DNA from: Blastopirellula marina
GTDB taxonomy: Bacteria > Planctomycetota > Planctomycetia > Pirellulales > Thermoguttaceae
Length of the DNA stretch: 43,670 nucleotides
Assembly (NCBI GenBank): GCA_020721945.1
Contig: DYLT01000005.1
Location: 1 to 43,670, forward strand
Direction of reading: 5' to 3'
Both the position numbers and the translations under genes were made by a program. Below are positions 5,203 through 10,578 of the stretch, piece after piece. The notes under the pieces are model-generated. The model saw only the letters and a program-made list of their open reading frames with translations. It had not been told where the DNA came from and did not search any database. Position 1 is the stretch's first letter. Each line of letters begins with the position of its first letter.

Positions 5203-5401
5203 GGCCGCATCGAGCGAGTTCGATTGCGTCGGGCCAGTTTGCCAAGAAAACGGTTTGGATCGTTTGCCGGGGTTGTCCGATAAAGGTAAAGAGGATCGGT
5301 GGCGATCCAAGTCCGCAGATCCTACCCAGGAGGGAGCCTCGCGACGGGACAGACCGAAACCCGGACCCGCAGTCCGGTCGCGCGGCCGTCAGGGAAGACC
5401 C

Positions 5402-7048
5402 ATGAGAATTCGTGCGCGCGTTGGCCTGCTCGGCGCGTTCGCCGCCGCCGGACTGGGAGCTGCTCTCTGCATCGGAACCGCGATCCACCCGGCAGTGGAC
5501 ACGGTGCCCGTGGCCCCGAATGCCGTCGCCTCGTGGTCCACGACGGGCCCCAGCGCGCCGGCGACCCCATCCGATCGGCGAGCCGATGCCGCGTTCGATG
5601 GGCCGGCCCGCCGGGAACCAACGGCACCCATCCGCTTGGAAGGGCCCAAGCCGCCTCATCCGACCCACCCGTTGCGGCTCGCGAGTGCCGACGATTACCG
5701 TCCTTCCGAACCGGGCGGATCGGCCACGCCATTGGCGGGCAGCGCGCCGGCTTCGTGGGGCGCGACGAGCCCGTGGTCGAAGGCCCATCGCAACGAATTC
5801 AGCGGCCCGGGTCTTTCGGGGCGCTTCTTGGCGGCGCGGACGGAGGCGGAGGATCCCGACGCCCTTGTTCGTTCGTTCGAAGAGTACCGTGGGCTTCGCC
5901 GCCCGTTGGAACGCACGGCAACGCGCTCGTATGCCCCCCGGCATCTCGCCGCCGCGGAACTTCGGCCCCTGGTCGAGGCGCTCTTGGACGAGGGGCTTGG
6001 CGAAGCGCGACTCGCGCCTCGGATTCACGTCGGCGGCGGCGCCTCGGGCGGCCCGAACCACGCAGCACCCGTGCTCGCGGTCCGCAGCGCCCTCGAAACG
6101 CTCGATCAGCTCGATCTGATCGTTCCGCTGTTGGATGTGCCGCAACCCTTCGTGACGCTCGACGCGGTGGTCTTGAGTGTGAGGTTCGGCGATTCGTCGC
6201 CGGCGGGGATCGACTTCGCCCGGCTCCACGAGCAACAGATTCTCTTCCCAGCGTGGCGTTCCCATGGAACGAAGGGGATCGCGCCGTGGGGGTTCAGTTT
6301 GAATGGATTGAAGTTCGCGTACCTCGAAGGCGGCCTCGGCCGGCTGGTCGAGGCCTTGGCGCCGGTGGGTGCGACGGATGTGCTCGCGGCGCCTCGGGTT
6401 GCGGTCCTCAACGGGCACTCGGCCGAACTGCTCGCGCCGCCCGAGCGGCTGCAAATTCGCCCTCTAGTTTCGGGCGACGGCACCATCCGCCTGGAAATCT
6501 GGGCGGACGAGCAGCCGGGCCCGGTCCGCGCCACCGCGTCGCCGGAGCGCGGCTCGGCGGCGCGGCGTGCCGTCGCGATGGCGCGCGACGGCACGACCAT
6601 GGTCTTCGGCGGTTGGCTCCGCGAGAAGCAGTCCCCCGCAGCCGCTGCGCCGGCCCGGCGCGACCGGCTGGTGCTTTTCCCATCCAAGCCCGCTTGGGCG
6701 CCCGTTACGGTCGATCGTCGCGAGATCCTTGCGGTCGTGGCTGTCAAGGTGGTCTGGGATGGCCCCGACCCCCGGGCGGTGCCGATGGAGCGGCTGAGCC
6801 TGGACTTCCGCCGTTCGGTTGCCGGGCGGTTCGCGCGGGCCGCCGAACGTGCCGAAGCCGCGGGGGACCTCGCGACGGCCTTTCGATTGACCGATCACGC
6901 GCTTCGGTTCGACCCCGAGCTGAAGATGGCAATCGACCTGCGAAACCGGCTCTGGACAACCCGCCCGACGGAAATCCGCATCGTCGGCCCGACCCCCATC
7001 GCGGAACCGGTGGCGCAGCGTTCCGCGGCGTCCGGGTCCCTGCGATGA
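5402..7048 (+). CDS. Secretin-domain (GspD/PilQ-like) exported protein
   Basis: The protein has 548 residues and starts at ATG 5402 behind AGGGAAGA; the frame is open further upstream but without signs of coding. Residues 1-25 are a signal peptide, followed by a long Pro/Ala-rich low-complexity stretch to about 150. An N-domain-like part follows ('RHLAAAELRPLVEALLDEGLG'). The secretin-like part has 'PFVTLDAVVLSVRFG', then 'DVLAAPRVAVLNGHSAELL', the signature in which secretins read 'PxhxxxNGxxA', and later 'GTTMVFGGWLREK', matching the 'TxxhhGGLh' strand. A tail of about 100 residues resembles a TPR-like helix pair. Secretins form outer-membrane rings of type II/III secretion and pili. This is a solitary, divergent member with no secretion genes nearby, so pore formation is uncertain. 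Confidence 0.75.
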   Translation: MRIRARVGLLGAFAAAGLGAALCIGTAIHPAVDTVPVAPNAVASWSTTGPSAPATPSDRRADAAFDGPARREPTAPIRLEGPKPPHPTHPLRLASADDYRPSEPGGSATPLAGSAPASWGATSPWSKAHRNEFSGPGLSGRFLAARTEAEDPDALVRSFEEYRGLRRPLERTATRSYAPRHLAAAELRPLVEALLDEGLGEARLAPRIHVGGGASGGPNHAAPVLAVRSALETLDQLDLIVPLLDVPQPFVTLDAVVLSVRFGDSSPAGIDFARLHEQQILFPAWRSHGTKGIAPWGFSLNGLKFAYLEGGLGRLVEALAPVGATDVLAAPRVAVLNGHSAELLAPPERLQIRPLVSGDGTIRLEIWADEQPGPVRATASPERGSAARRAVAMARDGTTMVFGGWLREKQSPAAAAPARRDRLVLFPSKPAWAPVTVDRREILAVVAVKVVWDGPDPRAVPMERLSLDFRRSVAGRFARAAERAEAAGDLATAFRLTDHALRFDPELKMAIDLRNRLWTTRPTEIRIVGPTPIAEPVAQRSAASGSLR

Positions 7049-7152: not shown

Positions 7153-7575
7153 ATGCGCGTCCGCGATCTGATCGACATGTTGAGGCGTTTCCCGCCTGAG
7201 GCGGTGGTGCGACTCTGTGTCAGCCTGCCCAACCGCGTCATCGAGACCCACGAGGTCCTCTGGGTCGGAGACTACGGCGGCGGCCCTCAGATCAACGCCA
7301 TGCTCGATTTCCGGGGGTTCCAGGTGTACGTCGGCTGTGGGCTGGAGCAAATGGTCCGCGAGGTGCCGGCCGAGCCGCCGGTGGACCTCGGCAAGTACCG
7401 CGACCCCATCGAGGCAGCCCGGGTCCGCGATTTCTACGTGATCCACCGCGGGCTGAACGAGCCGCTGGCTTTTCCCGATTTCGATTACGAGCACTGGATT
7501 CCCCCGCGCACGGTCTCGGGCGAGTACAACCCCATCATTGCCGAGATCCTGCGGGAGAAGCTGCTGCGCGAGTAG
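7153..7575 (+). CDS. Conserved-looking protein of unknown function, 140 residues
   Basis: The start at ATG 7153 has no obvious ribosome site. No signal peptide or membrane segment is visible, so it should be cytoplasmic. The N-terminus, 'MRVRDLIDMLRRFPPEAVV', resembles the opening of many small bacterial and phage proteins with a 'VxxLIxxLxxhPxdAxV' pattern and unknown function. The rest is acidic and aromatic-rich, with 'YEHWIPPRTVSGEYNP' near the end. Its last 41 bases overlap the convergent propeller pseudogene (stop at 7535), an unusual tail-to-tail overlap. I cannot assign a function. Confidence 0.7.
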   Translation: MRVRDLIDMLRRFPPEAVVRLCVSLPNRVIETHEVLWVGDYGGGPQINAMLDFRGFQVYVGCGLEQMVREVPAEPPVDLGKYRDPIEAARVRDFYVIHRGLNEPLAFPDFDYEHWIPPRTVSGEYNPIIAEILREKLLRE

Positions 7576-10500
7576 GAGGCGTGGCGATCACCTCGGCCGG
7601 CACAAAGGCCTGCGAGACGGGCAGGTAGTTGCACGTGCAGCCCCCGGTGAGGCTCGGCATGTTGAGCACGCCATCGGCGGGGAACAGGTTGTTGCTGCAC
7701 GCGGCGCGCACGTTCCAAAAGAGGACGATCTGGCGCGAGGCCAGGTCGATGCACGCCGCGTTGCCCAGGCACCGCGTGGTGACGAGGTGGGCGCTGGCCC
7801 GGGGGATGGTGCATCCGCGCCGCGTCCAGCGCATGGCGTCGCCGGCCGGCTTGCCCGTGCGCAAATCGTACTCGACGTAGCTTTCCGCGGTTCCGAAAAG
7901 CAGCTTGGCGCCCAGCACGAACAGCGGTTTGGGCAGGCTTTCGGCCGAGAGCTTGCTGCCGGGCTTGGGCCCCTCGTCGGGGAGCGCGGCCAGCAGCGTT
8001 CCGTCGGCGGCGCGGTACGCACCGGAGGAGAGCACCACCGCGTCGAGCGGTGCGCTGTAGCGCACTTCGGACCCGCCGGCGATTTCCCACAAGACCTTGC
8101 CCGAGGCGAGGTCGAACGCCCGGGCCTTCGCATCCCGATCGGCGGTCGCGCCCCACCGCTTGACGGTCCGTTCGGAGCAGAACACCTTGCCGCCCCCGAC
8201 CGCGACGCTCAGGTTCGCGCGAGCGCCCTCGTGTTTCCATGCCAGGCGGCCGCTGTGGCGGTCCACGCACACGAGGTGCTTGCCGCTTTGGCCCGCCAAA
8301 CGGCCCTGGCAGGCGCGGAGGTTGAGCCACGGTCCGGCCAGATCGTCGGGCAGGTCGAATTGCGCGGTCTTCCGGCCGGTGGCCGGGTCGATCGCGACGC
8401 AGGTCCTGCCGCCGGCCACGTAGAGCGCGTCGTCGGCGAGGACCATCTGGTCGGTCTGCTTGTGGCCGAAGGGAAGTTCAGCCTCCCAAAGCCGCTTGCC
8501 AGTGTACACGTCGACGGCCGAGAGGTGGTTGGCCTTGAGGAACATGCGGCCGCCGCCGACGCGCACCAGGGTCGCGCCCGGAATGCGGATCCAACGCGGG
8601 GGCGTGTCGAACCAGAGCAGTTCGAAGGGGGCCTTGAGGAACTGCTCGGACGAGGCGCCCGTGTTGGCCGCGTCGGCCGCCTCGTGCGACCAGGGAGCCG
8701 CGCCGGAAAGCGGTCCTTCGCGCGAGACGACGACCCACCGGCCCAAGACCCGCGCCGCGGCACCGACCAGGCCGCTTCGCGGGACGTCCTCGACGAGGCG
8801 TTCCTGGTCCGCCGGGGGCGCCGGCAAGCAGAGCGATCCGCCGTAGGGGCGCAACCTGGGAAAGAGCGCTGTAATCAGAGACCGGTCGGCCGGAGCCCCC
8901 ACGGTGGACCAATCCTCCGAAACCACCAGGCTGGCCAGATACGGGGGCAAAGGCGCTGCGAGGGCATCGCCTTCGTACACACTCGCCCGCACCCCGTACC
9001 AGCCCGCGCGGTGAAGCCGCTCGCGCAGCCGGGCCACCTTGACCGGATCCCGCTCGAACACGATCGCATCGAGTCTCGACTGCCGGACGATCTCTTCCAC
9101 CAGCCGTCCCGAGCCGGCGCCGATGACCAGCGCATAGCCTTCCCGCACCTTGGTGGTCCGAAGGAGGTCGGCGGCCGTCGTGGTCCATGCATCGGCCGAC
9201 CCCGCGGGCGCCGTGGGAAGGGCGTGGACGACCGGCGGGGCCTTCGGCTCCGCGCCGAACGCGTACAGCGAACCCTCGCGCGTGACCACGAACAGCTTGC
9301 CGGCCGCGGCCAGCAGGCGGTGCGGCGTGCCCTCGATGGCCGCGCGCCAGACCACCTTCGGCGATTCGCCCGCCGGGGGAAGACGCACCGCCTCGATGAC
9401 CCCCGGGCCGGCAAGGTAGAGGTGCGGGCCCGCGTGGATGTGAACCTTCAGCTTCGACGGCAGACGCCAAAGCGTGCGGAAGGTGGCCGTCCACTTGTCG
9501 GGATACGGGTCGTCGGGGTGGCTCTTGGCCAGTTCGGCAGGGCTCCTCTCCTCGCGTTTCGCCTCGGCAAGATCAGAGGCCACCACGCCCCGGTCGTTGT
9601 GATACATCACGTTCGAGGCGAAGACCGGCTCGTCGAACTCGCCAAGGTCCTTCTGGTTCGTCGGATCGACACGAAGGCGAGTAAACCCACCGGCATAAAG
9701 CATGGCTTTGAAGTCGGTTCCCTTGGGCGGTTTGGGGAACCGCTCGTCGTTGGGCCGGGCAACGTCGTACAAATCCCCGCCGTGGCTGAGGTAGTTGAGC
9801 GAGCCGGCCACGAACCACGTGCCCTTGGGCAACCGGTTGCGTCCGCCCCAACCCATCGTGTAGGTGCCCAGCTTGCCGGTCTTCAAATCGAGGAAGGCGG
9901 GAAGTTGAGCGCCGCAGGGGACCACCAACATGCCGTGGACGACCGCCAGGTAGCCCTGCGGGGTGAGCCCCGCTTCGTGGGCGACCCCGTGGTCCATGTT
10001 GGCCTTGGCGATGCGGTTGCTGTCGGTGTTCGACCAGACGAGTTGGCCGGACCGGGCGTCCAGGGCGTAGATCCCCACGCCATAGCCCGACCAGATGCCC
10101 GCGCCGAAGTACACGATCCCGTCGTGGAGCACCGGCCCGCCGCGGGCGGGGAAGAGTGAGATGAGCCTTCCGCGCAATAGAGATGCCCATCGTCGGACAC
10201 GAAGTAGACGGCGTCTTCCCACGCCACCGGCGCGAAGCGAACCGGACCCTCGGCGAAGAATTGCCATCGCGGGGCCCCCGTCTCGGTATCCAGGGCGGTG
10301 ACGGTGTCGGTGACCATCGAGGGGACGAACATCGTTCGCCCCAACACCACCGGCTCGTACGTGGCGTCGAACCGCAAACGCACCTCGCCGGGAAAAGCCG
10401 GACGTGGGGCCGGCAGGTGGCGCACCCACGCCAGGTGCAAGGCCGCCGGCAGTTGCTCGTCCGACGAAGCGCTGCGGTTGGCGTCGCGGCGGTACTGGGG

Positions 10501-10578
10501 CCAGTCGCCGCCCCTCGCGGCCGGAATCGCAGCGGCCAACGCGATCACCCCGACAACTAGAGCCCACGTTCGTGGCAC
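7535..10578 (-). pseudogene. Exported PQQ-type beta-propeller / methyltransferase fusion, broken by an internal deletion and frameshift
   Basis: The N-terminal piece starts at GTG 10578 (GAGGAGG five bases upstream) and encodes a signal peptide, the 'DWPQYRRDANRSA' opening common in planctomycete propeller proteins, and PQQ-like blades to 'YFVSDDGHLYC' near 10175. The remainder, from 'RLISLFPARGGPVLHDG', lies in another frame from about 10170 to the stop at 7535. The ~22-24 residues usually joining these motifs (end of one blade and a 'GGP...LGN' loop) are absent, so the lesion is a deletion of roughly 70 bases that is not a multiple of three. The downstream part reads blades, then a SAM-methyltransferase-like domain at about 9190-8760 ('ALVIGAGSGRLVEEI', 'VFERDPVKVARLRERL'), then more blades. 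About 980 downstream codons remain open, so inactivation is recent, or the break is an assembly fault. Confidence 0.85.

Follow-up and report, generated by a model that had tools for sequence, protein, structure and literature searches.

A methyltransferase-like domain between two propeller parts in a family of exported planctomycete proteins

The locus described here raises the question what a domain that resembles the class-I methyltransferases, enzymes that use S-adenosylmethionine (SAM), does in a protein that carries an export signal. It lies in a stretch of 43,670 nucleotides from Blastopirellula marina (contig DYLT01000005.1, assembly GCA_020721945.1; in the following called the window), on the minus strand, as do all parts of the encoded protein given below.

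Gene structure and frame break

The gene (positions 7538 to 10578, with a GTG start at 10578) is disrupted. A first frame runs from the GTG, encodes the signal peptide followed by DWPQYRR, the start of the propeller, and ends near 10171; a second frame encodes the remaining 881 residues, up to the stop at 7538-7535. The closest relative, L013:7515-10634 from the Thermoguttaceae MAG A05DMB26, is 91% identical and intact, with all its 1040 aa in a single open frame; comparison of the two reveals that about 79 bases are missing near 10171 in the window copy (break site at 10168 to 10178). The broken N-terminal frame that had been noticed in the sequence-only reading is thus confirmed. On both sides of the break selection is still purifying (dN/dS of 0.15 upstream and 0.19 downstream), which indicates that the break is recent or an effect of assembly; the cause in the window copy would then be either a deletion of recent date or a gap in the assembly. 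The genome is fragmented (576 contigs), and in it no second intact copy was found, the next best paralog being 38% identical.

A search of genome contigs for further relatives returned one, L013. Of 31 stretches that matched the search pattern in viral contigs none was a relative, and plasmid records gave short propeller matches only. The neighbours of the gene in the clade of the window encode a glutathione peroxidase and an ADP-ribosylglycohydrolase. Two other open frames in the window lack a Pfam match: one of 597 aa at 5255-7048 (at a threshold of 1e-3) and one of 140 aa on the plus strand (7153-7575), whose terminal stretch of about 38 bases is shared with the 3' end of the minus-strand gene.

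Export signal, propeller parts and tails

The protein begins with a Sec-type signal peptide of 24 residues ahead of DWP (10507 to 10578), recognized heuristically by its hydrophobic core and not by a dedicated predictor. Of the 60 family rows that have an N-terminus, 57 show a signal-like hydrophobic segment directly ahead of the propeller start (the same heuristic was positive for 163 of 3200 random internal stretches), in agreement with the export proposed earlier; homologues are thus generally not without a signal. The exceptions are L009, where the segment lies further upstream, and L070 and L099, which have long N-terminal extensions. The extension of L099 places several hundred residues ahead of the propeller, and L070 has Ig/BiPBP_C-like domains added. 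Judged by eye, the signal segments are Sec-like rather than of the twin-arginine type.

The first propeller part is split over the two frames (10171 to 10506 in frame 1; the remainder, 9234 to 10170, in frame 2, as seen from the frame-2 translation and the Pfam scan) and the second one (7592 to 8707, PQQ_2) follows the methyltransferase-like domain. PQQ_2 scored above its gathering cut-off of 27.6 bits in both frames (27.9 and 65.7 bits), so that the domain does lie between two PQQ-type propeller parts, as had been proposed; the number of two propellers derives from sequence profiles, the full-length model (built from L013 and the two window fragments only) having a pLDDT of only 34.5. At that pLDDT the model does not show how the domain packs against the propellers. 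The family shares PQQ_2 and the repeated blade motifs with BamB and other proteins annotated as 'PQQ-binding-like beta-propeller repeat protein', but differs from these in the Rossmann domain between the two parts, and the BamB equivalog TIGR03300 scored 32.6 bits against a cut-off of 285.2. The PQQ-dependent dehydrogenase models TIGR03075 and TIGR03074 gave at most 15.9 bits against cut-offs of at least 480.

The stretch at 7631 to 7813, within the second propeller part, contains four near-invariant cysteines (C949, C987, C1007 and C1009 in L013), conserved in 61, 61, 60 and 60 of 61 family rows, respectively. A malectin domain was found above cut-off at the C-terminus of seven out of 13 scanned proteins, and L098 has a LamG domain (above cut-off) besides a malectin tail. 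The signal-like segments and the malectin and LamG tails together suggest that the protein is exported and may face sugars.

A predicted class-I methyltransferase fold

The middle part of the protein (8696 to 9193) was recovered by the profile of the domain with an E-value of 9.7e-54. The Pfam family Methyltransf_25 scored 22.0 bits on it, below the cut-off of 27, and exceeded this cut-off in relatives (34.1 bits in L055, 31.8 in L044 and 35.0 in L062). An AF2 model of the domain, for which the alignment consisted of L013 and the window only, reached a pLDDT of 67 and has the predicted strand order of the class-I methyltransferases, a seven-stranded Rossmann sheet with a terminal antiparallel hairpin. 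The top match of the model in Foldseek was 3dlc (MMP1179; E 4.5e-10), VIA-align gave a Z-score of 18.4 to 3t7t (BVU_3255; rmsd 2.4 over 153 residues), with all 1000 compared chains at a Z-score of at least 8, and a profile made from 38 family domains matched 3dlc by sequence (3.6e-7). These comparisons argue for a methyltransferase-type fold, as had been proposed from the letters alone, with known class-I enzymes as the best profile and fold matches and with the same strand order and terminal hairpin in the model. In contrast to these enzymes, the domain of the family is exported, is inserted between propellers and has often lost the pocket.

Distribution in the Planctomycetota

The family was found in 51 of 392 planctomycete genomes by a protein search and its domain in 57 of these 392 by a domain profile search, with up to at least nine matches per genome (a lower bound, as nine candidates were scored per genome). 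The architecture is found again and again in the phylum, far more than chance would allow. All matches listed for the domain lie in open frames of at least 741 aa, and free-standing cytoplasmic copies, which might represent an ancestor, were absent among them. The genome of the window also has weaker matches in two shorter frames (261 and 233 aa), which are probably ordinary methyltransferases.

There is a second arrangement, in which the signal peptide is followed first by the domain and then by the propellers (L010, L154 and L175-L204). In these proteins the glycine loop is again patchy (32 rows, among which L175 repeats L154 and L178 has masked residues). Two paralogs in the genome of the window itself, L010:3530-6670 and L154 (G000:C504 and G000:C433), have the Rossmann domain directly after the signal peptide.

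Paper listings that combine planctomycetes with methyltransferase domains, malectin, PQQ, propellers or MoeB contained neither the architecture nor the operon described below, and listings for periplasmic, exported or secreted methyltransferases yielded nothing. The association of the family with the CVPVF protein described below is new here, and both the wide planctomycete family and the linked operon go beyond the sequence-only reading.

Association with CVPVF and an eight-gene operon

Near many of the longer family members we found a gene for another exported protein, of about 340-500 aa, that begins with AC-x-(V/I)-PVF and that we named CVPVF. It has a C-terminal membrane segment in eight of nine aligned members, an invariant cysteine (C34) and a CxC motif. 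CVPVF has no Pfam or NCBIfam family, apart from one weak LPXTG-anchor match below cut-off, and no solved structure related to it by sequence was found. It is present in 50 of the 392 genomes, 45 of which are among the 57 genomes with the domain (Fisher p 4e-42, with kinship ignored); counted by family groups, 18 are shared between the 24 with the domain and the 19 with CVPVF. In at least 18 of the 50 genomes, from eight families, the CVPVF gene has a propeller gene no more than 12 kb away; this count is a lower bound, as part of the list of domain matches was used. One genome shows a fusion: L063:751-5568 is a single open frame of 1606 aa with the order propeller, Rossmann domain, propeller, malectin and CVPVF with its membrane anchor.

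The CVPVF gene heads a row of eight genes (L105:14725-19899 continued in L106:171-3519, and L122:1318-9321), in which it is followed by genes for an FtsX-like permease, a LolD-like ATPase, a ModA-like binding protein, a ModB-like permease, a ModC-like ATPase, a MoaD/ThiS-like and a MoeB/ThiF-like protein (all named by likeness). The same order was found in part at L108, L110, L111, L114, L120, L121 and L123. This eight-gene operon is conserved in Planctomycetota. Its members belong to the same superfamilies as the proteins of the known ModABC, LolCDE and MoaD-MoeB sets but their best matches remain below the family-specific NCBIfam cut-offs (the modA equivalog TIGR01256, for instance, gave 56.6 bits against 62.5 for the one protein concerned, from L102), and here they are combined with CVPVF. 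No recurring enzyme gene was seen by eye beside the MoaD/MoeB-like genes at 12 loci. A link of the operon to tungsten was considered and rejected: aldehyde:ferredoxin oxidoreductase (AOR, PF01314) is present in 82 of the 392 genomes and in nine of the 50 CVPVF genomes, where about 10.5 would be expected (overlap counted by eye).

The clade of the window lies outside the operon, and the CVPVF gene of its genome is on a separate contig (C456). For this clade a complex with CVPVF is therefore the weaker inference.

Conservation of the domain and the favoured explanation

The conservation of SAM-contacting residues in intact homologues, to which the sequence-only reading had pointed, turned out to be patchy. 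In the window, motif I of the class-I methyltransferases (E/D-x-G-x-G-x-G) is incomplete: the glycine loop GAGSG (9107 to 9121; translation and alignment) keeps GxGxG and the acid is replaced by V. In the main set of 63 rows (from 64 rows L011, at a contig edge, was dropped, and open reading frames scoring 100 bits or less were left out) this acid is kept in one row and absent in 62, and the three glycines are kept in 59, 27 and 35 rows. The acid that ends strand 2 fared better: it is E in the window and in L013, and D or E in 57 of the 63 rows and in 101 of 128 domains (the distinct ones from all loci examined, minus the controls). A D at position 564 occurs in 26 of the 63 rows. In a cytosolic control, the phylum's own protein-isoaspartate methyltransferases (PCMT), conservation of the glycine loop is at least 90% (27 sequences, as three of 30 loci were not usable and were dropped).

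Residues outside the pocket are much more constant, namely G507 (63/63), Y508 (52/63), R545 (60/63), G552 (59/62), Y554 (59/63), G555 (58/63), R603 (55/63), P604 (63/63), Y605 (54/63), G606 (57/63) and G607 (63/63). In the model these are predicted either in the second helix or at, or just before, the points where strands 1, 3 and 5 start. The SAM site of the class-I fold is located at the strand ends, so that the conserved residues would mark the edge away from it. Mean conservation was lower on the SAM side (0.46) than on the opposite side (0.64), a comparison that builds on the strand order in a model of moderate confidence and on positions chosen by hand. Between the window and L013, dN/dS is 0.32 for the domain core and 0.14 for both propeller parts, so that the rate in the domain is about twice that of the propellers in this one pair, one member of which is a broken gene.

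The explanation that we favour, and to which we would give an even chance, is that the intact gene encodes an exported double-propeller protein of the envelope with the role of a scaffold for binding. The domain with the class-I methyltransferase fold would have been recruited as an insertion between BamB-type propellers. It would serve mainly in structure or in interactions, apparently through the side that faces away from the SAM pocket, and the pocket, being dispensable in most members, would have been left to drift. In the lineages with the operon, the propeller protein probably acts together with the membrane-anchored CVPVF and the ABC transporters of the latter, on the outer side of the cytoplasmic membrane. 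A known precedent for a methyltransferase fold in which no binding of SAM was detected is Dre2/anamorsin (PMC3440578), where it stands beside a cysteine-rich functional part. The likeness is one of fold, and Dre2/anamorsin differs in being eukaryotic, cytosolic and an Fe-S protein.

Alternative explanations

Some of the observations count against a scaffold. GxGxG is kept in 49 of the 128 domains, and the strand-2 acid is present in all 49 of these versus 52 of the 79 others (p 3e-7, kinship ignored), as would be expected of a pocket that is in use. The window and L013 keep both GxGxG and this acid and thereby most of the pocket, and there is a clade of exported proteins with DxGCGDG. In total, ten of the 128 domains have the complete canonical motif I, and the N-termini of these ten proteins are again signal-peptide-like, followed by the propeller start. 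The exported paralogs with an internal domain and a full motif I (DxGCGDG) are L155, L157-L159, L162-L164, L206, L208 and L096. With 49 out of 49 GxGxG domains keeping the strand-2 acid and ten having the full motif, the pocket appears intact in some paralogs. We abandoned the idea of a pocket that is dead in the whole family, as it is complete in some exported members, and it thus seems to have been lost and kept in patches. SAM was not expected outside the cytoplasm in the sequence-only reading, which suggested another ligand or a scaffold role; this holds in part, in that the pocket has decayed in most members, but for the domains that keep GxGxG with the strand-2 acid or the full motif I, SAM or a SAM-like ligand is still conceivable.

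In a subset of the members the domain may therefore bind SAM, or a ligand like it, extracytoplasmically, and an extracellular ligand is possible for some. We regard it as rather unlikely, yet as the most serious alternative, that the domain does so in the pocket-keeping members as an enzyme or a sensor, with the ligand supplied by one of the two ABC systems or by cell lysis. The coupling and the canonical motifs speak for it. On the other side, the loss is patchy, with at least ten changes of the GxGxG state on the propeller tree and 19 on the domain tree, position 564 is not coupled to GxGxG (25 of 49 versus 43 of 79), only five independent pairs for GxGxG and the strand-2 acid were found on supported branches, without significance, and no recognizable SAM carrier was seen among the operon genes. 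The more far-reaching version, that planctomycetes have a set of exported propeller proteins that bind SAM or a close adenosyl ligand extracytoplasmically and work with CVPVF and the FtsX/LolD-type, ModABC-like and MoaD/MoeB-like system, we consider unlikely.

Slightly less unlikely than this last version is that the second propeller is the working part, with a metal or disulphide site formed by the four cysteines and matured by CVPVF, the ABC transporters and the MoaD/MoeB-like proteins, and that the Rossmann domain is a passive spacer. The near-invariance of the cysteines, the invariant C34 and CxC motif of CVPVF, and the ModABC-like and MoaD/MoeB-like genes in the operon are consistent with it. 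Conserved cysteines in an exported protein may, however, be plain disulphides, the AOR tungsten enzymes do not co-occur with CVPVF, and the Rossmann domain has conserved residues of its own.

Binding of SAM in the cytoplasm ahead of export, by a protein that is loaded or checked for folding, would make pocket and export compatible and would account for a kept pocket in an exported protein. Proteins are exported unfolded by Sec, and the Sec-like signals therefore speak against such loading, which we consider very improbable. A misassembly or annotation artefact that joined three parts from different genes, as the fragmented genome and the broken frame could suggest, is refuted by the intact relatives, since L013 as well as dozens of genomes, single-contig ones among them, have the identical order in one open frame.

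Implications

The favoured explanation thus remains that of an exported scaffold in which the methyltransferase-fold module would be structural or interacting. SAM chemistry is thought to be restricted to the cytoplasm, and here a whole exported family has the predicted methyltransferase fold, with up to at least nine copies per genome. The family would show either the reuse of an enzyme fold as an envelope scaffold or a hidden extracytoplasmic binding of adenosyl ligands. The link to the operon provides concrete candidate partners for the propeller proteins and makes the question testable.
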